DNA of 45,539 nt, taken from the IMG/VR virus record IMGVR_UViG_3300047319_001382, positions 1 through 45,539 of that record. One strand, written 5' to 3'. The position numbers and the translations under genes are program-made. The notes below the pieces were generated by a model that was not told the DNA's origin, did not search any database, and saw nothing but the letters and a program-made list of their open reading frames with translations. The DNA comes from a virus. Positions 3,279 to 42,660 of the stretch are shown here, piece after piece. Every line of letters begins with the position of its first letter. Within the stretch, counting starts at the first letter, position 1.

Positions 3279-3652
3279 GCCCGCCTCCATTGTTCGTGCA
3301 TCTCGGGTCTGATCAGCATCACCGGCTTCCCCAACTGCTTGGCCAGCGACACGACGTGAGCCGTGCCGCTGCTCTTGCCGTCCCAGAACGCGACCATCCT
3401 GCTGCACGTCTGGGCGATGGTCCGGTTGCGCTCGAGAGGCGCCCTGGGACCATGCTTCAGGTAGTCGGGCTTGATCACGACCACCATCATCTGCCTCAAC
3501 CTGGCGACGCGCTCGGCCTCACGATCCACGCCGCGCGCGCCGCCCGTGATCACGATCGTGTGGTCGGGCAAGGCCATCAGGTAGGCCTCGACCATGCGCA
3601 TGATCGGGTATTCCCTGCTGCCGACGACTGCGACTCGCTCGGCAGTGATCAC
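3275..3652 (-). CDS. YspA/DUF2493-type SLOG protein
   Basis: The 125-residue protein matches the small SLOG-fold group related to YpsA and DprA. It has GSREYP near the start, the nucleotide-binding signature ITGGARGVDREA (residues 34-46), then ERNRTIAQ and FWDGKSSGTAH. SLOG proteins bind nucleotides or nucleotide-sugar ligands and occur in phage and defence contexts. Translation starts at a GTG that overlaps the upstream stop. A second, more divergent relative may be encoded at 10012-10491. Confidence 0.8.
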   Translation of the reverse strand: MITAERVAVVGSREYPIMRMVEAYLMALPDHTIVITGGARGVDREAERVARLRQMMVVVIKPDYLKHGPRAPLERNRTIAQTCSRMVAFWDGKSSGTAHVVSLAKQLGKPVMLIRPEMHEQWRRA

Positions 3653-5775
3653 TTCTCAGTCCTCTCGATCGCGCCCTTGTCCGGGGCTGATCCGAAGTAC
3701 AAGATGCCGCCGATCGTGGTGTTGAGTCCCGTCCACCGCCTGCCGGTGTTCCACCAGTCGGCCTGCTTGATCGGCAGCCAGTTGAAGTGGGTCGAGTCCG
3801 CGAACACCAGAGGCGTCTGGTTACCGTTCGTCTCCTGGCCGAACACCTGCATGCCGGTGAGCGTCCAGTCCGTTCCCTGATAGCGGAAGATGTTGAGGGA
3901 CGCAGAGTTCGCGAGCACGTCGAAGTTGAACGTGTTCGAGGCACCGCCAGTCGCGGGCATCAGGATCGTGGTCTGGTTGTTCGAGCCCAGGATGTTGTTC
4001 ACATAGTGCGTGTTCTCCACGATCCCGCCCACCGCGTAGTCGACCGCCGGCGCCCCGAATCTCGTCGAGGTGATCGTGTTGCCGACGATCTCCAGGTCCC
4101 CAACGTTGCCGCTGCCCTTCATGCCGCGACCGTGGAAGTCTGTCATCTTGTTCCTGAGGATGAAGATCGGTCCGCCGTCCCAGATCGGCGCCAGCGAGAA
4201 GCATGAGTTGTTGTCATGCAGCCAGTTGTCCATGACCAGCACGTTGATCGCGTGGCTGTCGTCCAACTCGATCGCGTCGTCCGATGTGTGCCTGACGACG
4301 TTGTTCGTGATCTCTGCGTCATACACAGAACCCGAGTCAGTCGGATCGCCGGCATCCATGCCGATGCCATTGAACACGTTCTCGATCAGGTTGTTGTCGC
4401 ACACCGTGTTCGTGCCGCGGATCTCGATCTGGTTTGCACTCTCGTATTCGCGGCTCTTAGAGGCTGAGTAGTGCCAGTCGCCGATGCGCAGGCCGTCCAG
4501 GTGGCAGTTGGTCACCGAGCAGTTGTTGGACGTGCCGCCGCCTGCGCCCTTGACCAGGTAGACGGCTGGCTGGTTGCAGCCGTAGATCGTGCACGAGTCG
4601 ATCACGGCGCCGTCGCAGGTTCCAAGCAGACCGCCAGCGATACCGGAGCCCTGCATGTCCGGGCTCGGGTCGGCTGAATATGCATAGTGAATCCTGGTGC
4701 CACCCGAGTAGCGGACCGTGAGGTTAGCGATGCGGACGTTCTTGCGACCGATGTTGATCAGGTTGTCTAGATACCCGCAGTGAAGAACCATGCCCTGAGG
4801 ACTCTTGCCGCTGCGGCGCTTCACGTAGAGAGTGTCGTTCTGCCAGATCCATCCCGAGAGCTCGCCGTAGTTGGAGGATGAGCTCGAGTTCGACACCCAG
4901 GTGCTGTCGTCCAGCACTCCCTTGAGCGTCGTCTTGCGGTGGATGAGCTCCGCCCAACCGAGTATCACCTGCTGCAGCGAGTCGCCTGGGCCGGTGGCCG
5001 CAGGGATGTAGGCCTTCCACGTCGAGTCCTGGTTCGTGTTCAGCCACTTGATCGCCTTGCCCGGCGCGTAGTAGCCCTTCTCCATCCACTGGTTCGCGCC
5101 GCAGATGATCGTCGAGTCACGGTTCGTGCCGTCGCCCTCGATGAACCACGGGCCGCCATCCACTGGGAAGTTCGCGGAGCCGAAGTCCAGGCGCTCGTGA
5201 TACTCACCCGGAGCGATCAGGATGCCGCCGTTGACGCCGTGGTTCGTGGACGCGGCGAGAGCCGTCTTAGCGGCGTTGATCGTCTTGAACGGATAGGCGA
5301 GCGTGCCGTCGTTGGTGTCCACGCCTCGACCCTGATCCACGTAGAAGATCGGGCCGGTGGTCGTCATCTGCCTGGGCGCGAAGAAGAATACGGTCTGAGG
5401 CGCCGTGCTGAAGTTGCCGCCCGGGTCTATGCCCTCGATGAAGAACTCGAAAGGCGTGTTGGGATCGCCGAACAGGATGCGGCCCTCGTAGACGTTGCCC
5501 GTCGCCTGCTGGGTCTGCCCGTTCGGCCCGAAGCCGATGCGCCTCACCATGACCATGAGGGTGTCGAACGGGTTGCCCGACGCGAAGACTCTGCCCTTGA
5601 TCCTGATCACTGCGTTGGAGTCGTCGTCGCCCGTCACGATCGCCTTGATCGCCGCCGACTTCCACTGAGACACCACCTGGGTGGAGATGCCGTTGATGCC
5701 GTTGCCGGCAATCGCGATCGCAGGCATCACCACGACGAGTGCGATCAACAACCACAGCCTGATCTTGCGGTTCAT
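3649..5775 (-). CDS. Secreted right-handed beta-helix protein (pectate-lyase fold)
   Basis: The 708-residue product begins with a typical Sec signal peptide (MNRKIRLWLLIALVVVMPAI, cleavage probably after AIA near residue 23). Next is an Ig/FnIII-like module (about 25-140), then a DUF1565-type start of a beta-helix (YVDQGRGVDTNDGTLAYPF) and a long series of Asn/Gly/Thr-rich parallel-strand turns (NVRIANLTV, VIDSCTIYG, NVVRHTSDDAIEL). The fold is that of polysaccharide lyases and tailspikes. ATG 5775 has GGAGG 4 nt upstream. A Sec signal is unexpected on a tailspike, so the protein is probably exported from the infected cell. Substrate unknown. Confidence 0.8.
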   Translation of the reverse strand: MNRKIRLWLLIALVVVMPAIAIAGNGINGISTQVVSQWKSAAIKAIVTGDDDSNAVIRIKGRVFASGNPFDTLMVMVRRIGFGPNGQTQQATGNVYEGRILFGDPNTPFEFFIEGIDPGGNFSTAPQTVFFFAPRQMTTTGPIFYVDQGRGVDTNDGTLAYPFKTINAAKTALAASTNHGVNGGILIAPGEYHERLDFGSANFPVDGGPWFIEGDGTNRDSTIICGANQWMEKGYYAPGKAIKWLNTNQDSTWKAYIPAATGPGDSLQQVILGWAELIHRKTTLKGVLDDSTWVSNSSSSSNYGELSGWIWQNDTLYVKRRSGKSPQGMVLHCGYLDNLINIGRKNVRIANLTVRYSGGTRIHYAYSADPSPDMQGSGIAGGLLGTCDGAVIDSCTIYGCNQPAVYLVKGAGGGTSNNCSVTNCHLDGLRIGDWHYSASKSREYESANQIEIRGTNTVCDNNLIENVFNGIGMDAGDPTDSGSVYDAEITNNVVRHTSDDAIELDDSHAINVLVMDNWLHDNNSCFSLAPIWDGGPIFILRNKMTDFHGRGMKGSGNVGDLEIVGNTITSTRFGAPAVDYAVGGIVENTHYVNNILGSNNQTTILMPATGGASNTFNFDVLANSASLNIFRYQGTDWTLTGMQVFGQETNGNQTPLVFADSTHFNWLPIKQADWWNTGRRWTGLNTTIGGILYFGSAPDKGAIERTEK

Positions 5776-5793
5776 CTGTCCTCCGTTGACTTG

Positions 5794-5875
5794 GCGGCAC
5801 CGGCTGCTCGCGAAGGGGTTAGCGAGCCCGAGGTCCTCGGAACCGTCAAGTACGAGGTTCGGTCGCCGGTGCCGC
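5794..5875 (-). ncRNA. Cloverleaf-like structured element between two genes
   Basis: A perfect 11-bp outer stem pairs GCGGCACCGGC (5794-5804) with GCCGGTGCCGC (5865-5875). Inside are three more stems: GCTCGC/GCGAGC (5806-5811 with 5822-5827), CCGAG/CTCGG (5828-5832 with 5836-5840) and AACC/GGTT (5841-5844 with 5856-5859). Together they form a four-way junction of 82 nt filling the 124-nt gap between the glycoside-hydrolase-like and beta-helix genes. It lacks tRNA invariant positions. It may be an RNA regulatory or processing element, or a DNA cruciform. The pairing is seen; the function is inferred. Confidence 0.5.
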
Positions 5876-5899
5876 ACGATCCTGGTCATCTTACTGCCG

Positions 5900-24011: not shown

Positions 24012-24416
24012 CTATGGGGTGATGGGGACGACGTGACGTCTGTGCCTGAGATCCTCGATGGCGCTCTTCTGCTCGGCGCTCCCGTCGGGTTCTATGATCG
24101 CGACGACCGCGATCTCTACGACGTCCATCACGCGCTCGAATCGGATCGAGTCTTGGACTGCAGTGTTCCTCTGGGTTCTCTCCAGCCTCTCCAGGCCGGC
24201 TGAAGTCTCTGCGATGTGCTGTCGGACGTCCATCGTCGACTTTCGGATGATCCAGCCGATGGTCGCAGAGCCGACCGCGACCACCATCCCTCCAGTGAGT
24301 ATCCACAGCCTCATGCGGCGGAACAAATCGTCGATCCGTCCGATGCCGACATGTATCTCGTTCATCTCTGGGCTCACGCGGCCTTCCTCCCTGGTGTCAT
24401 CCTCGATGTCCGCCAT
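24012..24416 (-). CDS. Single-span membrane protein of the lysis region
   Basis: The 134-residue product has a charged cytoplasmic N-terminus, one membrane helix (LWILTGGMVVAVGSATIGWII, about 38-58) and a helical C-terminal domain (DVRQHIAETSAGLERLERTQR). It overlaps the endolysin stop as TAATG. A holin, antiholin or inner-membrane spanin-like role is possible, but no diagnostic motif separates these. Confidence 0.55.
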   Translation of the reverse strand: MADIEDDTREEGRVSPEMNEIHVGIGRIDDLFRRMRLWILTGGMVVAVGSATIGWIIRKSTMDVRQHIAETSAGLERLERTQRNTAVQDSIRFERVMDVVEIAVVAIIEPDGSAEQKSAIEDLRHRRHVVPITP

Positions 24417-24925
24417 TAGTCCTCCACCCAGGCGATCCTGGCCGCGATCGCTCCATTCTTCTTGAACAGGGTTGCGTCTGTCTCCTGGATGGCGTCTCCA
24501 TCGTTCCTATAGTTACCAGCGGAGCAGTGGATGACTGCGATCGGACCGAGCTCGTTGCTCAGAGTGACGATGCCGATGTGTCCCTGCTTGTCTCCTCTGT
24601 CCGGCCACACGAGGACGTCGCCGGGCATCACCAGGTTCCACGGGACCTCTGCAGCGAAGCCGAGAGGCGTCTTGGCGTCCTCGTATACGTTGCTGCACTC
24701 CAACCAGTCGCCTCCAGGGAGGTGAGGGATCGCTCCGTTCGGCAGGTAGCGATCCACTCCCATGGCCCAGGCGACGAAACCGCTGCAGTCGAGCTTCACG
24801 TCGGGAAGGCGAAGCTGGGGCGCGCGACCGCCGGCACCGAGTGAGTAGATCGTCGGCCTGCCGATGGCGCTGCGCGCACGATCGACCACCTGCTTCCTGG
24901 TCATGATCCCCAGAGACTTCGCCAC
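24416..24925 (-). CDS. NlpC/P60 endolysin
   Basis: The 169-residue enzyme has the NlpC/P60 cysteine-peptidase triad: Cys47 in LDCSGFVAW, His116 in GHIGIV and a third polar residue, probably His133 in VIHCSAGN. The family cleaves peptidoglycan stem peptides, so it is the probable endolysin. GTG 24925 is chosen because GGAGG lies 5 nt upstream; the GTG at 24937 has no ribosome-binding site. It is followed by two membrane protein genes that fit a lysis cassette. It could alternatively be a tail-associated NlpC/P60 protein, as it follows tail-tip genes. Confidence 0.8.
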   Translation of the reverse strand: MAKSLGIMTRKQVVDRARSAIGRPTIYSLGAGGRAPQLRLPDVKLDCSGFVAWAMGVDRYLPNGAIPHLPGGDWLECSNVYEDAKTPLGFAAEVPWNLVMPGDVLVWPDRGDKQGHIGIVTLSNELGPIAVIHCSAGNYRNDGDAIQETDATLFKKNGAIAARIAWVED

Positions 24926-25003
24926 CAGTTCCTCCACTACGCCGGCTCACCGCGCGCTACGACGAGAAGGCGGGTTCCTCGCTTTCGCGCGCGGCTCACC
25001 GGG
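24926..25003. repeat. Gap with 10-bp direct repeats
   Basis: CGGCTCACCG occurs at 24943-24952 and 24992-25001, each next to a GCGCGC stretch. The 78-nt gap separates the last tail gene from the endolysin, a natural boundary for regulation. No T-run is present. The repeat may be incidental in GC-rich DNA. Confidence 0.35.
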
Positions 25004-25768
25004 TCACTCAGAATCGGGTCCGTCTGACTCGTCCTCCGGCGTGCCGGAGCCAATCCCGAAGCGGCCGAGGAGCGTCGCGGCAACGGTCCCGGCGATCGCC
25101 GACTGGAGGAGGCCGGACGCGCCCTTGGCCATCGTGTGGTTCATGGACGCGACCACCTGCTCGTGGAGCATCGCCGGCAGCACCTCGTTGGTGGTGTGGA
25201 TCGCTACCGAGTAGAAGTGGAGACGGCGCTGGATGTCCTCGGACGCCACGAACCGATACAGGGTCTTGATCGCGCCGCCCTCCCTGATGAAGACGCCGCG
25301 GTTCTTGATCACGAACACTGGTCCCATGGGCGACGTGCCGCGAAGTTGCGATCCCTGGCGGTGGAGGTTCAGTCGGCTGAGGTACATCCCTGGAGGGACG
25401 CTCTCCCTCTGTGACGGCCTGGCGCCGCCCACGATCGGGATCGCGATGTTGGCGCCCAACTCCGGATGCTGGCTGCCGCCCTCCTCGAACTGCGAGAGCC
25501 TCAACCTCTTCTTCTGCCCGATGCGGATCATCGCCCACATGCGTCCGACCGTCGGCCTGGCGAACGGCTTGATGATCGCGATCTGACGGAGGATGAACTT
25601 CGACTTCCTCACGGTGACGTCTTCCTGGATCTTGAGGCGCTGCCTCTCCTGTATGAGTTTCATCGTCGCGTTGATCGAGTTGGAGATGGCATACGCCTTC
25701 TGGCGCTCGCTGAGGAGTAGGGCTTCCAGGACGAAGTTGTCCTTGAGTTCCGCCTCCATGGTGACCAT
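25004..25768 (-). CDS. Probable distal tail or virion protein
   Basis: The 254-residue protein follows the tail-tip genes with a TGATG coupling. It has a helical N-terminus (LEALLLSERQKAYAISNSIN), a basic middle (IRIGQKKRLRLSQF), a beta domain (GMYLSRLNLHRQG, VFVIKNRGVFIREGG, LHFYSVAIHTTNEVLP) and a Gly/Ala-rich end. No family was recognised. Its place between tail proteins and the lysis cassette suggests a tail or baseplate component. Confidence 0.55.
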   Translation of the reverse strand: MVTMEAELKDNFVLEALLLSERQKAYAISNSINATMKLIQERQRLKIQEDVTVRKSKFILRQIAIIKPFARPTVGRMWAMIRIGQKKRLRLSQFEEGGSQHPELGANIAIPIVGGARPSQRESVPPGMYLSRLNLHRQGSQLRGTSPMGPVFVIKNRGVFIREGGAIKTLYRFVASEDIQRRLHFYSVAIHTTNEVLPAMLHEQVVASMNHTMAKGASGLLQSAIAGTVAATLLGRFGIGSGTPEDESDGPDSE

Positions 25769-26202
25769 CAGACGGGGAGGAGGCCGTCCTGCCCCATGTA
25801 CAGCTTGTCGGTCTCATTCTCGTACACGACCCACGCATCGACCGTGACGCTGGGAACGTCCGGTCCAGCCACTGCGGCGACGAGACGCAGTGTGATATAC
25901 GGCCAGCCCATGTATGGAACACCGGTCGCCACGGTGATGACCACTGGCATCGGGTTCGTGAGGCTGAGTACGTGACCGCTCACGCCGTCGCCGAGAAGGT
26001 TGGTACCTGCCGGGTTGAAGAAACCGCCGCTCCCCGTGCCAGATCCAATCCACGTGCACGGCTGCGGCGCACCGCCGCCGTTGCCGTACACCAGGAAGTG
26101 AATGGCCTTTGCACCCAGACACGGGATGTACTTCGTGAACAGCTGGTTGTTGGTCACGAGAGTCTGGTTGTCGATGACCTTCGGGTATTTGAACGTCTTC
26201 AC
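25768..26202 (-). CDS. Tail-region protein, paralogue 1
   Basis: The 144-residue product shares FKYPKVIDNQTLV, TKYIPC-GAKAI, GGAPQ, SGGFF-PAG, VYENETDKL and GQDGLLP with its neighbour at 26215-26661, so the two are tandem duplicates. Both look like compact beta proteins and could form part of the tail tip or host-range apparatus. GTG 26202 has GGAGG upstream. Amino-acid differences concentrate in central loops. Confidence 0.65.
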   Translation of the reverse strand: MKTFKYPKVIDNQTLVTNNQLFTKYIPCLGAKAIHFLVYGNGGGAPQPCTWIGSGTGSGGFFNPAGTNLLGDGVSGHVLSLTNPMPVVITVATGVPYMGWPYITLRLVAAVAGPDVPSVTVDAWVVYENETDKLYMGQDGLLPV

Positions 26203-26214
26203 CGCGCACCTCCG

Positions 26215-26661
26215 TCAGGCCGGCAGCAGTCCGTCCTGACCGTTGACCAGCTTGTCAGTCTCGTTCTCATAGATCACATAGGCATCGACAGTGACGTTGG
26301 TGACGTCGTTGGCTGGAGACGCGCCGGCGTTGCCGATCAGTCTCAAGATCAGGTAAGGCCACCCAAGATAGAAGAGACTGGGGGTGGGGTAGAACGTGAC
26401 TGACATCGGGTTCGTCGGAGTGAGGGCGTGGCCGTTCACGCCGTCGGCGGTCGCCAATCCAGCGGGTGCGAAGAATCCTCCGCTAGGAATCCCTGATCCG
26501 ATGGTGTTGATGGCCTGAGGCGCGCCGCCTACGGCAGCTCCGACAACGAGGAACACAATCGCCTTGGCTCCCTGGCACGGGATGTACTTCGTGTTGAGTG
26601 CGCCGCCAGCGGCAACGAGCGTCTGGTTGTCGATGACCTTCGGGTACTTGAATACCTTCAC
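26215..26661 (-). CDS. Tail-region protein, paralogue 2
   Basis: The 148-residue duplicate of the gene at 25768-26202. Conserved blocks are MKVFKYPKVIDNQTLV, TKYIPCQGAKAIVFLV, GWPYLILRL, VTVDAY-VIYENETDKLV and GQDGLLPA, roughly half of the positions by eye. GTG 26661 has GAGGACACC upstream. The pair lies directly downstream of the large tail-tip protein, suggesting two versions of a beta-rich accessory tail protein. Confidence 0.65.
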   Translation of the reverse strand: MKVFKYPKVIDNQTLVAAGGALNTKYIPCQGAKAIVFLVVGAAVGGAPQAINTIGSGIPSGGFFAPAGLATADGVNGHALTPTNPMSVTFYPTPSLFYLGWPYLILRLIGNAGASPANDVTNVTVDAYVIYENETDKLVNGQDGLLPA

Positions 26662-34027: not shown

Positions 34028-34477
34028 TTAGGGGTTCGAGTCCGTCGTCTGATAGTCGATCTGGATCTGCTGCAGACCAATCCAGACGCCGCCCGACGTC
34101 ATCGAGTTGTTGAAAGAGAAGTTAGTCGGGAACGGAACCGCCTCGAACATGGTCGTGAAGGTCGACACGGCTGCATACACCGCCCTCAACACGTCTGCCT
34201 TGATGCTGAGGACGTCGCTCTGCTCGCGAGCGCAGATCCAGACGTTGAAGGTCGAGCGCCACCTATGGCTGCCACTCGGAGTGGGCGGTGATCCTGGCTC
34301 AGTCGACATCACCTGGGCGAACACCTTGGAGACGCCGGTGGGCAGGGTGATCGCGGCCCCGGGCACGCCCTCCTCGATGCTGCTCGGTTGAGTGAGCCAG
34401 TTCGGCGGACCCACGATCGCGTTGAGCTGGACCAGGAGCTGGTCGAAGACCCGATTCTCGAAGGCGTCAAGGGGCAT
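34028..34477 (-). CDS. Tail terminator protein candidate
   Basis: The 149-residue product has the size and layout of gpU-type tail terminators: an N-terminal helix (AFENRVFDQLLVQLNAIV), a strand with WRSTFNVWICAREQ, a helix (LSIKADVLRAVYAAVSTF) and a C-terminal strand (GVWIGLQQIQIDYQT). It lies just upstream of the tail tube gene. ATG 34477 overlaps the previous gene by 11 nt and lacks a clear ribosome-binding site, so coupling is likely. Confidence 0.7.
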   Translation of the reverse strand: MPLDAFENRVFDQLLVQLNAIVGPPNWLTQPSSIEEGVPGAAITLPTGVSKVFAQVMSTEPGSPPTPSGSHRWRSTFNVWICAREQSDVLSIKADVLRAVYAAVSTFTTMFEAVPFPTNFSFNNSMTSGGVWIGLQQIQIDYQTTDSNP

Positions 34478-35489
34478 AGATCGCTCGGAACTGAGGCATC
34501 GAGAACCAGGCGTTGATCGAGCCCAGGTTGTTGGAGCCAGTGCAGACGAAGAGGCCGAAGTGAACGCCGTCGCCGCCGGCCTCGAAGTCTGGATACTCCG
34601 TCGCCAGGCTCTGACCAAGGAGGACGCCGTCAGCGAACGCGCTGACGACCTGGGCCGTCGGGTCGAACTCCATCTCGAGGTAGACGCCATGAGGCGCGAG
34701 AGGAGCGAGGCTGTATGACCTCACGACGGCGTTTGAACCGTCGCTCCTTCCGACGACGAACTCGATCGTCCCATCGGGCGTCGGCACGATCCTCAGCTGG
34801 GCTACTGCGATCCCAGGGGCACTCGGGAAAGGCGGAAACTGCATCCATGATCCGACCTCGATGCCGGCGCACGTGGTGGCGGTCTGATTCGCGACCTCGT
34901 ACGGTCCGACGAAGCAGCCGACGCGCCTCTTGAAGTTCGTGAACGTCCCGGTCCTGATCTCGAACGGCTCGTCATCGTTGAAGCCGATCAGGGAGTACTC
35001 GATCCACTTGTTCGCGCCTGGATTCGCCGTCGTGACCTTGAGCGACCCAGATCCAGGGAACGACGCGAAAGCTCCAGGCGTCGCCCTCAAGATCGTCGGC
35101 GCCTGGTTGAGCGGCGAGAAGAAGAATGTCCGCTGGTTGAAGTACTGGTCGATGAGTGCCATGACCTGATCGTTGGTCATGTCATCTGCCTCCTGGAACG
35201 CCACGAACGACTCGACGATGTTGCCGTCTACGCGCTTCTTGGTGATCAAGACCTTGTGGATGCCACCGTCGAACGTGATCAGCGTCCCCTCGTCGATGTC
35301 GACCGAGAACGCGTCGGACCTGGTGATGACCTTGATCAGTCTGCACGGGAAAGCCGCCGTCCCGTTGTCGTACTGATTGAGACGATCGTACTTGTCGATG
35401 ATCGCGAACCCGGTCTCCGCGCCGATCGCGATCGGCTTGCCGGAGTTCTTGATCATGAAGTCGATGTCTGACGGAGAAGTGGTGATCAC
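34467..35489 (-). CDS. Neck-type adhesin: head-closure-like domain fused to lectin-like domain
   Basis: The 340-residue protein has an N-terminal domain of about 110 residues (DIDFMIKNSG, GFAIIDKYD, LIKVITRSDAFS, LITFDGGIHKV, VDGNIVESFVAFQE) that is clearly homologous to the N-terminus of the protein at 36293-37576. The domain resembles head-tail joining (gpFII-like) proteins, which fits its place between capsid and tail terminator. The C-terminal 200 residues look like a concanavalin-type jelly roll (WIEYSLIGFNDDEPFEIRTG, GVYLEMEFDPTAQVVSAFADG). It may be a neck-mounted adhesin. GTG 35489 abuts the upstream stop. Confidence 0.65.
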   Translation of the reverse strand: MITTSPSDIDFMIKNSGKPIAIGAETGFAIIDKYDRLNQYDNGTAAFPCRLIKVITRSDAFSVDIDEGTLITFDGGIHKVLITKKRVDGNIVESFVAFQEADDMTNDQVMALIDQYFNQRTFFFSPLNQAPTILRATPGAFASFPGSGSLKVTTANPGANKWIEYSLIGFNDDEPFEIRTGTFTNFKRRVGCFVGPYEVANQTATTCAGIEVGSWMQFPPFPSAPGIAVAQLRIVPTPDGTIEFVVGRSDGSNAVVRSYSLAPLAPHGVYLEMEFDPTAQVVSAFADGVLLGQSLATEYPDFEAGGDGVHFGLFVCTGSNNLGSINAWFSMPQFRAIYAP

Positions 35490-36296
35490 TCACGGGCTCC
35501 CCACCGGGAACGGCGTCAGGTTGGGTCTCGCGTACATGCCGATGAGATCGAAGGACGTGTCGTTTCCCGCGAGGTTGTTGGAATTCGACAGACCCGCCTG
35601 CGGAGCCATGAAGGCTGTCTGGGCGGGCATGGTGGCGCCGACGTTCTGAGTGCGGAGCAGCGACTGGGACAGGACGTCGACCAGGTAGGTCACGATGACA
35701 TTCTGGTTCGGGTTGCAGATCATCACGAACTCATAGACGGTGTTCAGAGAGATCGTCAGAGGCAATGGAGTACCGTTCGACAGCAGCATCGGCGTCTTCG
35801 TGAAGTGGGTGTTGCCGCCAGTGCCGTCGATCGTCAGGATCGACATGCTCCCGAGGTCCGTGTCGTCGAACCACAGGCCCACGCTGTTGATGGAGCCGAC
35901 TGCGGACGAGGCGGCCTGGCACACGCCGTTGCCGCCGGAGCCGACCAGCTGGGAGAGACCGACGAACATGCGGATCGACATCGGGGACGGCGCCGCGGAG
36001 ATGAAGAACCTGGCGGAGAAGTAGAACCCGCCGCGACTCGCGGCGTTGCCTCTCCAGAACTTGCGATCGCTGGCCAAAGTCGGGTGAGTCCCGATCTCCA
36101 GGTTCGCGATCCCGCCAGGACCGATGAAGTTGGTGCGCGGGAACTGGGTAGTGAACCCCGCTCCGAGCGCAGGGCTCGTCATCGTGACGCCGATACTCGT
36201 TGACCACGACGGCACAGACGGGCCGAAACTCGTGGGTGAGAAGATCGTCGGAGCCTCGTGCATGATCGCGGGCTCGAAGATGCTGGGTTTGTTCAT
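35490..36296 (-). CDS. Lectin-like structural protein
   Basis: The 268-residue protein has an N-terminal Pro-rich strip (FEPAIMHEAPTIFSPTSFGP) and a jelly-roll-like domain (FWRGNAASRGGFYFSARFFIS, SIRMFVGLSQLVGSGG, GLWFDDTDLG, TVYEFVMICNPNQNVIVTY) of the kind found in phage tail fibre and adhesin tips. It lacks the head-closure-like domain of both neighbours and is placed between them. ATG 36296 overlaps the upstream stop as ATGA. It is likely a virion surface protein. Confidence 0.6.
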   Translation of the reverse strand: MNKPSIFEPAIMHEAPTIFSPTSFGPSVPSWSTSIGVTMTSPALGAGFTTQFPRTNFIGPGGIANLEIGTHPTLASDRKFWRGNAASRGGFYFSARFFISAAPSPMSIRMFVGLSQLVGSGGNGVCQAASSAVGSINSVGLWFDDTDLGSMSILTIDGTGGNTHFTKTPMLLSNGTPLPLTISLNTVYEFVMICNPNQNVIVTYLVDVLSQSLLRTQNVGATMPAQTAFMAPQAGLSNSNNLAGNDTSFDLIGMYARPNLTPFPVGSP

Positions 36297-37576
36297 CGCG
36301 AGTAGTCCTCGATCCAACTACCGACGTTGACCAGGTGGTTGACTCCCTGGCTGATGTTCTGGCTCGTCTCAGCGACTCTGCAGACGCCCGCGGCGCCCCA
36401 GCCCTCGAAGCGGTTCTCCTCGTAGCGCCCGCTGGCGCAACCGGCCATCAGGAAGCCGTGGACCGCGGAACCCTTGAGGAAGTTGTTGCCGATGATACGG
36501 ACGCTGTTCACGTTCTCGAACTCAACAATGTTGTTGATCGCCACGTCCGTAGGATCGCGCTCGAAGTCGACGCCCAGGATAGCCACGACGCCGCAGTTCT
36601 CGGCGTAGAACTCACCGCCGACCGGGACCCCCAGGACGATTGAGCCGTTGCTCTCCATGTTCCCGCCGTTGAACTCGGCGACCGTGCACGACGTCGTGAT
36701 CTTCACGCCGTAGAGAGCGTTCTGGACGAACGAGCACATGTCGAACTTGAGGGTCGTGTTCCCCTCGGCTCCGGTCGAGTCCACGAGCAACCCCTGGCCG
36801 GTGCAGAACGCGACCGTCAGTTGCTCTGCGAGCAGGACGCCGGCGGCGTCCAGCTGGATGCCGTCGACAGGACCGTCGCCAGCCCCATTGAAGCTCGCGC
36901 CCACGAAGACGTGGTTGAACCAGCACCTGGGGGTGAAGGTGCCGCCGTTGTAGATCCTCATGGCGTACGCGGCGCCTGGAGGCCTCATGAAGAGCTTGCT
37001 GAAGCCGACCGACGACGAGGCGTTGAGGATCGGGGAGCCGATGCCGCTGATGGAGCCGCCCATGCCGAAGATCTCGATGGGCTTGGTGATCACCAGGGGC
37101 GTCGAGGGGTTCAGGGGGTTCGCGTAGTAGGTCGCGTCACCGATGGCGATCGTGCCGCCCGACGCCGGCAGCGAGTCGTGGACGGCCTGGAGGCCGTCTC
37201 CCGGATTGACCGAGATGACTGCTGGCGTCATGCTGGCGATGATCGCTCGCACCTGGGCTTCGGTCACGATCGCGGGCTCCTGGTAGACCACGAACGACTC
37301 GCAGAGCTCGCCGTCATTCGTGATCGCCGTCTTGACTACGCCATACACACCACCGTTGAATGAGAGCTGGTCTCCGACCACGATCTGGCTGAACGCCGAC
37401 GTCTTGGTGGTCACCTTGACTAGGTTGCCGGTGAACTCCCCGATGTCGATGTCGAGAACCGTCTCGTCGTAGTCGTCAACGATGCCATAGCCTGACTCCT
37501 CGTCTCGCTGCCCACGCGCGACGAGCACGCCGGAATCTTTGATGATGAAGTCGATGTCCGGCGTGCTGTCGAACAT
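36293..37576 (-). CDS. Neck-type adhesin: head-closure-like domain fused to beta-helix
   Basis: The 427-residue protein shares the N-terminal domain of the 34467-35489 product (DIDFIIKDSG, YGIVDDYDE, LVKVTTKTSAFS, LSFNGGVYGVV, ITNDGELCESFVVYQE). From about residue 125 the sequence changes to a right-handed beta-helix start (VNPGDGLQAVHDSLPASGGT) with repeated short strands and turns (DGIQLDAAG, GVKITTSCTVAEFNGG, NIVEFENVNSVRIIGNNF), the fold of tailspike depolymerases. Thus a probable joining domain carries a spike-like module. ATG 37576 has an AAAGG leader. Confidence 0.65.
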   Translation of the reverse strand: MFDSTPDIDFIIKDSGVLVARGQRDEESGYGIVDDYDETVLDIDIGEFTGNLVKVTTKTSAFSQIVVGDQLSFNGGVYGVVKTAITNDGELCESFVVYQEPAIVTEAQVRAIIASMTPAVISVNPGDGLQAVHDSLPASGGTIAIGDATYYANPLNPSTPLVITKPIEIFGMGGSISGIGSPILNASSSVGFSKLFMRPPGAAYAMRIYNGGTFTPRCWFNHVFVGASFNGAGDGPVDGIQLDAAGVLLAEQLTVAFCTGQGLLVDSTGAEGNTTLKFDMCSFVQNALYGVKITTSCTVAEFNGGNMESNGSIVLGVPVGGEFYAENCGVVAILGVDFERDPTDVAINNIVEFENVNSVRIIGNNFLKGSAVHGFLMAGCASGRYEENRFEGWGAAGVCRVAETSQNISQGVNHLVNVGSWIEDYSR

Positions 37577-37601: not shown

Positions 37602-37976
37602 CTACCGGACCTTCAGGATGCCGGTCGCCGTGACCGCCACCAAGATGCTGGTGCCCGCAAACGTGTTGGTGTAGCGGATGAACCTCTGGCACAACGCCGT
37701 GTCGAGCGCGAGGATCTGCACTGAGTTGCCCGTGGTGACCGTCGAGAACGCCGCGCCGGTCACGTCGGTCCACACGGAGTTGTCGGGGCTGGACTGAATC
37801 TTGCCCGCCAACGTGCCGCCGACCTGGGCACCGCAGTTCTGGGTGACATGCAGGATGCCGTCGAAGTCGGTGATGTCGACTCCGGCCGGCGTGATGACGC
37901 CCGTGACGCTCTGGGCGTTGACCAACTGTGCAGCCAGCTGGAACAGCGCGGCCGCACTACCAGTTGCAGGGGACAT
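37602..37976 (-). CDS. Small beta-rich head protein, decoration candidate
   Basis: The 124-residue protein lies two genes after the capsid gene. It is a compact beta protein (ITDFDGILHVTQNCGAQ, GKIQSSPDNSVWTDVTG, RFIRYTNTFAGTSILVAV) resembling small phage head proteins encoded next to capsid genes. ATG 37976 has AAGGAG with a 6-nt spacer, suggesting strong expression. Its role as capsid decoration is inferred from position. Confidence 0.55.
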   Translation of the reverse strand: MSPATGSAAALFQLAAQLVNAQSVTGVITPAGVDITDFDGILHVTQNCGAQVGGTLAGKIQSSPDNSVWTDVTGAAFSTVTTGNSVQILALDTALCQRFIRYTNTFAGTSILVAVTATGILKVR

Positions 37977-41816: not shown

Positions 41817-42115
41817 GCGACCACCCACTTGCCGTCGCGGATGAAGCCGTGGTCGCCACAGTCGGTGCGGAGTAACGACGGCTCGAGCGTCAGCGGTGAC
41901 TCACTGGTCATCGTCCACGCGTTGGGACCGAGTACCGGGATGAACGAGCCGTCGGGCTCCGTGTGCTTCGCGCAGGTGTGTCTCACCCAGACGCCGCAGA
42001 TCTTGCCGTCGTCGGCTCCGGCAGCGGGACCGTCAAGGCGCACGATCTGGTAGCTGTGGTCGTTGCCGAGGTCCACCCACTCGTCGCTGGCGATCTCCTC
42101 GGGGATCTCGCTCAC
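41813..42115 (-). CDS. DUF6527-like small Cys/His protein
   Basis: The 100-residue protein contains WVRHTCAKHTEPDG, WTMTSESPLTLEPSL and TDCGDHGFIRDGKW, a layout like DUF6527 proteins with a probable metal site made from Cys and His residues. It lies between the head-joining and portal genes, an unusual place for a metal-binding protein. GTG 42115 overlaps the upstream stop. It may be structural or an accessory protein of packaging. Confidence 0.55.
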   Translation of the reverse strand: MSEIPEEIASDEWVDLGNDHSYQIVRLDGPAAGADDGKICGVWVRHTCAKHTEPDGSFIPVLGPNAWTMTSESPLTLEPSLLRTDCGDHGFIRDGKWVVA

Positions 42116-42660
42116 GAGATACCGCCGAACTCGACGTTCACCTGGGCGCCGAACGTCCCAGCCCCGGCCGACTTCGCGCGGAGCTCGGACTTGAGCGTGG
42201 ACCTGATCCTCATCAGCTCGTCGATCGCGATCTTGGTGACCATGCGATTGCCGATCTGGTACTGAGCGATGTCGTCCGTGATCCGGCCGGTGATCACGCC
42301 CTCGATCGCGACGAGGGTCTTCTCTGCCCAGGCCTGGAAGCTTCCCGCGACCGCGGTGGCGAAGTTGGGCAGCACGGTGACGTTGGAGGTGGCGGCGGTG
42401 TAAGTGTCGGTGCCGTCGGTCACCACCTCGCCGATCGTGTAGCCACCGGGACCCAGGCTCGCCGTCTGCGCGGCCGTGAGCGTGACCAGGAACCCGGTGC
42501 CGCTCTGCGCAGCCGCGATCGGCCCCAGGATGTTGATGCCGTTGACGAAGACGTTGAGCGCCCAGGTCGGCGCGATGAAGTCAGGGAAGAACCTGCTCAC
42601 CTTGACGGTGTTGCCGGCCGTGATCGCGGAGGGCCACTCTGTTGGGATCGAGGGTGCCAT
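42112..42660 (-). CDS. gpW-like head-tail joining protein with N-terminal beta domain
   Basis: The 182-residue protein lies between TerL and portal, the position of lambda gpW. The last 70 residues (VITGRITDDIAQYQIGNRMVTKIAIDELMRIRSTL) resemble gpW in length and pattern: short helix, beta turn, long helix. The first 105 residues form an additional beta module (VSRFFPDFIAPTWALNVFV, GFLVTLTAAQTASLGPGGYT), not present in gpW. ATG 42660 has a poor Shine-Dalgarno match. Homology is inferred. Confidence 0.6.
   Translation of the reverse strand: MAPSIPTEWPSAITAGNTVKVSRFFPDFIAPTWALNVFVNGINILGPIAAAQSGTGFLVTLTAAQTASLGPGGYTIGEVVTDGTDTYTAATSNVTVLPNFATAVAGSFQAWAEKTLVAIEGVITGRITDDIAQYQIGNRMVTKIAIDELMRIRSTLKSELRAKSAGAGTFGAQVNVEFGGIS

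Follow-up and report, generated by a model that had tools for sequence, protein, structure and literature searches.

In phage λ, a hexamer of the head-closure protein gpFII, or stopper, lies between the adaptor and the tail terminator, and a C-terminal loop of this protein (residues 108-117) contacts the terminator gpU (PMC10721106). Members of the gpFII family (PF05354; PHROG Hc1), which includes the stopper of phage R4C, are almost always free-standing proteins, with gpFII itself comprising only 117 amino acids (aa). Here we describe a locus in the IMG/VR virus record IMGVR_UViG_3300047319_001382 (a linear metagenomic record of 45,539 bases, known here from sequence alone and analyzed at full length, hereafter called the window) that resembles the λ system in fold, sequence profile, position before the terminator gene, and the presence of an adaptor gene upstream, but wherein the stopper domain has been duplicated and is extended at its C-terminal end by 248-335 residues. 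We propose that the two proteins concerned, P427 and P340, are probably λ-like siphophage stoppers bearing C-terminal neck-mounted adhesins or depolymerases.

Constant N-terminal anchors joined to exchangeable C-terminal modules at the neck have been described for the neck passage structure (NPS) proteins of lactococcal 936 and P335 phages. The modules are carbohydrate-binding modules (CBMs), β-helices, or esterase-like domains, and binding to host cells has been shown for one of the NPS CBMs (PMC6669499). A constant N-terminal anchor with differing C-termini is likewise seen when P427 is compared with P340, and also in proteins of four other loci (L116, L187, L058, and L018) discussed below. 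However, NPS proteins are anchored by a BppU-like β-sandwich, part of an additional collar protein, and the NPS of TP901-1 is non-essential, whereas the anchor described here is the stopper itself: the N-terminal domain of P427 matches stoppers, not BppU, and no long coiled-coil is seen.

The stopper of Staphylococcus phage 812 has an added external β-sandwich domain, and its termini contact neck decoration proteins, which probably hold whiskers (PMC12886913). These features show that such additions are tolerated, although the domain in question is small and structural, and no large adhesin or enzyme is fused to it. The pre-neck appendage gp12 of phi29 is a β-helix adhesin. Together with T4 wac, XM1 gp40, and the A-1(L) neck fibers, it belongs to a set of appendages on the neck or collar (PMC10491603, PMC10966104), but these are separate proteins bound non-covalently to neck rings rather than stopper fusions. 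Neck-mounted modular binding devices are already known, and on our best reading it is the anchoring on the stopper that is new. A literature search, with most subscription papers outside its scope, returned no description of a stopper that is itself fused to an adhesin or enzyme.

The shared N-terminal domain belongs to the λ gpFII stopper family

The genes for P427, P340, and the protein between them (P275) lie on the minus strand where the original prediction had placed them. They and the adjoining terminator gene are as follows.

36293-37576, minus strand: P427, with a stopper domain (residues 1-100), a linker helix (about residues 105-114), and a putative right-handed β-helix
37277-37576, minus strand: P427 stopper domain, residues 1-100 (family profile to gpFII, AlphaFold2 and Foldseek)
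36293-37192, minus strand: P427 β-helix module, residues 129-427 (homolog in L003, Pfam Beta_helix)
35490-36296 from the ATG at 36296 (268 aa), or to 36317 from an upstream TTG (275 aa), minus strand: P275
34467-35489, minus strand: P340, with a stopper domain (residues 1-100), a linker helix, and a C-terminal domain without an assigned fold
35190-35489, minus strand: P340 stopper domain, residues 1-100 (similarity to P427, tree)
34028-34477, minus strand: tail terminator (gpU-slot protein), whose orthologs lie directly downstream of a free-standing stopper in L011 and L014

When compared by BLASTP, P427 and P340 produce one strong alignment that covers residues 1-113 of each protein (47/116 identical, or 41%; E 2e-18), and their C-terminal halves do not align. 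The original prediction had recognized this shared domain by a series of motifs, which are indeed present: both proteins retain DIDF-IK-SG in the N-terminal helix as well as the motifs of the core strands. An iterated search seeded with the two domains recovers a free-standing protein of ~90-120 aa, encoded before the terminator, from ~75 viral loci and from further bacterial genome contigs, including proteins annotated as head-to-tail joining in RcRhea and CRP-823. This free-standing form (90-120 aa) is present in nearly all of the ~130 related loci, some of which are referred to below by L numbers.

Searched against the Protein Data Bank (PDB), the family profile matches λ gpFII (E 2e-14) and, from phage R4C, the head-to-tail joining protein, which is its stopper (7e-12). 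Moreover, hits to Pfam Phage_attach (PF05354) were obtained for 45 of the 48 members of the family and hits to PHROG head closure Hc1 for 36. Direct comparison of P427 with Phage_attach gives E 0.017-0.034, below the gathering score, and a control profile built from free-standing members only ranks P427 first among the 351 open reading frames (ORFs) of the window (E 1.1e-7).

An AlphaFold2 model, made for residues 1-114 of P427 only and of moderate confidence (pLDDT 78, pTM 0.63), is a β-sandwich with an N-terminal helix. λ gpFII and SPP1 gp16 had been named in advance as the folds to compare, and the best Foldseek match of this model is λ neck gpFII (8k37_M, E 1.7e-4), and the matches ranked next are likewise neck proteins, those of Pam3, R4C, T4, SaPI1, SPP1 (gp16), Bxb1, and chi; the matching structures include 8xow_f, 8gtf_M, and 7z4w_1. 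BppU-type structures are absent from the top 50 matches. Because the TM-scores of the neck matches are ~0.45-0.62, we take them as support for a stopper fold and not as a precise model. Profile, fold, and gene position together place the shared domain in the head-closure family of λ gpFII, as had been predicted.

Head closure and duplication of the stopper domain

The structural operon is of the λ type and runs on the minus strand in the order terminase, 182-aa adaptor, portal, protease-capsid fusion, 84-aa protein, 124-aa protein, P427, P275, P340, tail terminator, major tail protein, and tape measure. Its genes upstream of P427 include the following.

42112-42660, minus strand: head-tail adaptor, 182 aa (match to phrog_5774, head-tail joining, at E 1e-31), with whose ring the stopper is expected to pair
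41828-40248, minus strand: portal, upstream of the protease-capsid gene
40251-38266, minus strand: protease-capsid fusion, between the portal and the 84-aa protein
37602-37976, minus strand: 124-aa structural protein, whose orthologs coexist with free-standing stoppers

The genes of the neck region are tightly packed, such that the P275 start forms an ATGA overlap with the end of P427, P340 begins directly where P275 ends, and the start codon of the terminator (34477) overlaps the P340 stop. P275 carries no stopper domain. A scan of the window ORFs with the stopper profile matches only P427 and P340, with no free-standing copy. Their position between capsid and terminator is typical for stoppers, but the copy number of two is not, since relatives nearly always have one; the closest, L011 and L014, encode a single stopper of 101-102 aa directly before the terminator. 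The 124-aa neighbor was considered as an alternative stopper and rejected because its orthologs sit beside genuine stoppers. If the operon is complete, as it appears to be in this record, then the lack of any other stopper means that P427 and/or P340 must close the head, and one or both are almost certainly the stopper itself. The original prediction held that duplicated closure domains had been turned into anchors. The fusion is there, but the implied loss of the closure role needs correcting, because without a separate stopper at least one copy must still perform it.

The duplication itself is upheld by a tree of 82 stoppers, wherein the P427 and P340 domains are sisters (support 99/98) and group with the free-standing stoppers of the nearest relatives (93/96), although deeper forks are unsure because the alignment has few columns. 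This topology indicates that the stopper domain was duplicated within the lineage. A linker helix of ~14 aa (about residues 105-114) is common to P427 and P340, and free-standing stoppers are without it. In the simplest order of events, we infer that fusion came first, followed by duplication and then by a swap of one C-terminal domain at the linker. Further members of this subfamily are scarce. A tblastn search of named phages gave no match to P427 and only weak matches (E 0.06) to the P340 C-terminus, and an IMG/VR search for more P427/P340 subfamily members gave only an apparently near-identical record.

It is possible, if somewhat less than likely, that only one of the two proteins serves as the stopper and that the other copy has lost this role and docks elsewhere, for instance stacked on the first ring or on the tail. 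Duplicates often diverge, nearly all relatives manage with one stopper only, and the P340 domain fits the family profile far worse than does that of P427. The most likely stopper in such a case would be either P340, which adjoins the terminator, or P427, which is the better profile match. However, both copies keep the core strand motifs and the motif of the N-terminal helix, the element that docks on the adaptor in the R4C stopper (PMC10276861).

The C-terminal modules and a mobile two-gene cassette

The C-terminal halves were predicted to adopt different folds, namely a β-helix in P427 and a lectin-like domain in P340, with P275 as a further lectin-like protein. That the two halves differ is confirmed, and a right-handed β-helix in the C-terminal half of P427 is supported by a Pfam Beta_helix score of 22.5 bits, which falls slightly short of the cut-off, and by a homolog in L003, a different phage contig, that passes the cut-off with 38.4 bits. 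The lectin assignments (ConA/LamG type) find no such backing, as neither the P340 C-terminus nor P275 has a significant Pfam, NCBIfam, or PDB match, and a PDB profile search for the P275 fold returned nothing. By profile comparison, the P340 C-terminus has no similarity to P275 and no relation to the propeller-like C-termini of L116 and L187 described below, and no relatives of it were found. A single-sequence structure model of full P340 was unusable (pLDDT 34).

In L003 the β-helix occurs without a stopper domain. The P427 β-helix is 43.6% identical to L003 5959-6897 over 312 columns, and P275 is 44.7% identical to L003 6894-7679 over 275 columns. The junction between the two genes is near-identical in the window and L003 (TGGATCGAGGACTACTCNCGATGA), with the same 4-nucleotide ATGA overlap. 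These full-length alignments indicate that the β-helix and P275 form a two-gene cassette that moves between phages, and P275 is probably a partner subunit of the β-helix protein. In L003 the cassette comes after a lysin that is 54% identical to the CHAP-type lysin of the window.

24416-24937 of the window, minus strand, and 4411-4905 of L003: CHAP/NlpC-type lysin (54% identity)

That two otherwise unlike phages share both a lysin type and this cassette suggests to us that they have a shared or similar host. P275-type domains are also present in L174 and L175, and they occur in a Manatee Spring siphophage and in Microcystis phage Mae-JY02. In Mae-JY02 the domain adjoins a gene annotated as glycerophosphodiester phosphodiesterase.

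Stopper fusions in other genomes

A search for the stopper domain fused to other modules, which had been suggested together with the prediction, found additional examples in L116, L187, L058, and L018. Among 132 distinct stoppers, C-terminal additions of 100 residues or more were found in five, namely P427, P340, L116, L058, and L018. The L116 protein (635 aa), from a bacterial genome, joins a stopper to a weakly GH32-like domain, and a search of that entire 7.1-Mb genome found the fused gene as its sole stopper match. Another genome from the phylum of L116 encodes a protein with an identical domain layout, L187 (646 aa), which matches Phage_attach with E 3.5e-12 and GH43 with E 0.019. Identity between the two proteins is 35% for the stopper portions and 42% for the remainder, with conserved QNDH, SRDP, and E motifs that could represent a glycosidase triad. 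A PDB profile search for the fold of this putative GH43/32-like propeller returned nothing. The viral contigs L058 and L018 encode a stopper followed by a tail-fiber-type motif and by an Ig-like Big_1 domain, respectively. Mapping the fused state onto the tree requires five changes, at least two of which are forced by well-supported branches, which indicates that similar fusions arose independently elsewhere.

Short stopper extensions of 25-50 aa are present in five relatives (S-CBS1, S-LBS1, L040, L083, and L067), and separate fiber-type genes lie beside the stopper in S-CBS1, S-LBS1, L083, and L067. More generally, separate tail-fiber-type ORFs were observed between stopper and terminator in L053 (5237-7253), L059 (6343-8490), L067 (3759-6783), L083 (6458-8823), and L005 (7484-9998), and this slot in cyanophage-like relatives looks like a recurrent adhesin insertion site. 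The terminator profile (a hidden Markov model) matched only the closest relatives, and elsewhere the stopper-terminator gaps were read from ORF order. In the Synechococcus phage S-CBS1, a neck-slot gene annotated as major tropism determinant (L006 7610-8671; phrog_11262 tail protein) adjoins a stopper with a 50-aa C-terminal extension.

Other arrangements were also encountered. A 207-aa polypeptide in L092 (6274-6894) has two tandem stopper domains (E 1.8e-25 and 4.3e-22). Gammaproteobacterial proteins of ~435-475 aa (L193 2516-3817, L194 1412-2836, and L195 2730-4037) carry a C-terminal stopper domain, which is the opposite fusion arrangement, with an N-terminal part without assigned identity. 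Long frames at stopper matches in Alphaproteobacteria, Gammaproteobacteria, and the phylum of a Gemmatimonadetes metagenome-assembled genome were rejected as adhesin fusions; where examined, they proved to be N-terminal extensions or stoppers at a C-terminus.

Proposed arrangement at the neck

From the computed results, namely stopper homology and fold, the lack of another stopper in the record, duplication, a mobile two-gene cassette, and recurring fusions, we infer the position in the virion, the make-up of the ring, the outward projection of the C-terminal domains, and glycan binding or cleavage as follows. A free-standing stopper would have gained a C-terminal module at the linker helix, the fused gene would then have been duplicated, and one copy would have exchanged its module. 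The N-terminal domains, alone or mixed in one hexameric ring, would close the head between the adaptor and terminator rings. The linker helix would project each C-terminal domain outwards (the β-helix of P427 and the domain without assigned fold of P340), where it would act as a neck adhesin or depolymerase. A mixed ring of three plus three subunits would suit trimeric β-helices. It was also predicted that host recognition had been placed on the neck instead of at the tail tip. This goes too far because the tail-tip operon is still present, including, for example, a 1008-aa protein orthologous to one in L011, and the neck may be a site at which the host is gripped in addition to the tail tip.

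Several points weigh against this proposal. A stopper-anchored location is deduced from sequence, and the P340 domain alone is not significant against the profile of free-standing members (E 0.25), such that its assignment depends mainly on its likeness to P427. Because the C-terminal loop of gpFII touches gpU, a bulky C-terminal fusion would need room at this site. The C-terminal functions are guessed, with the P340 C-terminus and P275 lacking an assigned fold, and the GH43/32-like propeller of L116 and L187 is a weak call from Pfam (E 0.15 and 0.019) and motifs recognized by eye. Finally, a neck position does not prove adhesion, as the neck-fiber module of A-1(L) did not bind its host.

In an unlikely alternative, the C-terminal domains take no part in host recognition and instead are structural decorations, comparable to T4 whiskers or the Milano collar, with a stabilizing or sensing role. 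The T4 neck fibers have been proposed to function in assembly and environment control, the module of A-1(L) that failed to bind was a CBM (PMC10966104), and the collar of Milano apparently lends strength (PMC10491603). Such a role fits poorly with a β-helix/P275 cassette that moves between phages sharing a lysin type, with enzyme-like propellers in other fusions whose QNDH, SRDP, and E motifs are conserved, and with lactococcal neck CBM domains that bind host cells (PMC6669499). We consider it very improbable that P427 and P340 are ordinary tail-tip fibers or tailspikes that borrowed a stopper-like domain for trimerization or assembly, the real stopper having been missed or lying outside a linear and perhaps incomplete record: fiber genes in the neck slot of related cyanophages do mean that the place of a gene is not enough to fix that of its product in the virion, but the record holds a complete portal-to-tail operon in which no other ORF matches the stopper profile, and the fused gene of L116 is the only stopper match in a whole genome.

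If P427 and P340 are indeed stoppers with neck-mounted adhesins or depolymerases, then a small ring that retains DNA can bear large external domains and perhaps sense through them, and contact of the neck with the host could be linked to genome release. Searches for host-range determinants usually turn to tail-tip genes, and host-recognition genes of this kind would be overlooked, since their annotation goes no further than 'head-tail joining protein' or 'hypothetical'. The fusions provide a simple search rule, namely to look for PF05354 domains with over 100 residues C-terminal to them. More tentatively, the essential closure ring might serve in several unrelated tailed phages as a chassis for exchangeable modules that bind the host or degrade glycans, with two paralogs sharing the ring in the present case to display two different adhesins at the neck, perhaps as three trimeric copies of each.

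Other observations in the window

Two further features of the window were noted. A large right-handed β-helix protein is encoded at 3649-5889 on the minus strand (Beta_helix E 8.5e-9). Its frame contains a signal-peptide-like start (MNRKIRLWLLIALVVVMPAIAIAG), and the protein is possibly secreted, which would be unusual for a phage. After the gene for the 1008-aa tail protein come tandem paralogs of 144 and 148 aa (25768-26202 and 26215-26661, minus strand), both with FKYPKVIDNQTLV near the start. They have no family match and are candidate tail-tip receptor-binding or decoration proteins.

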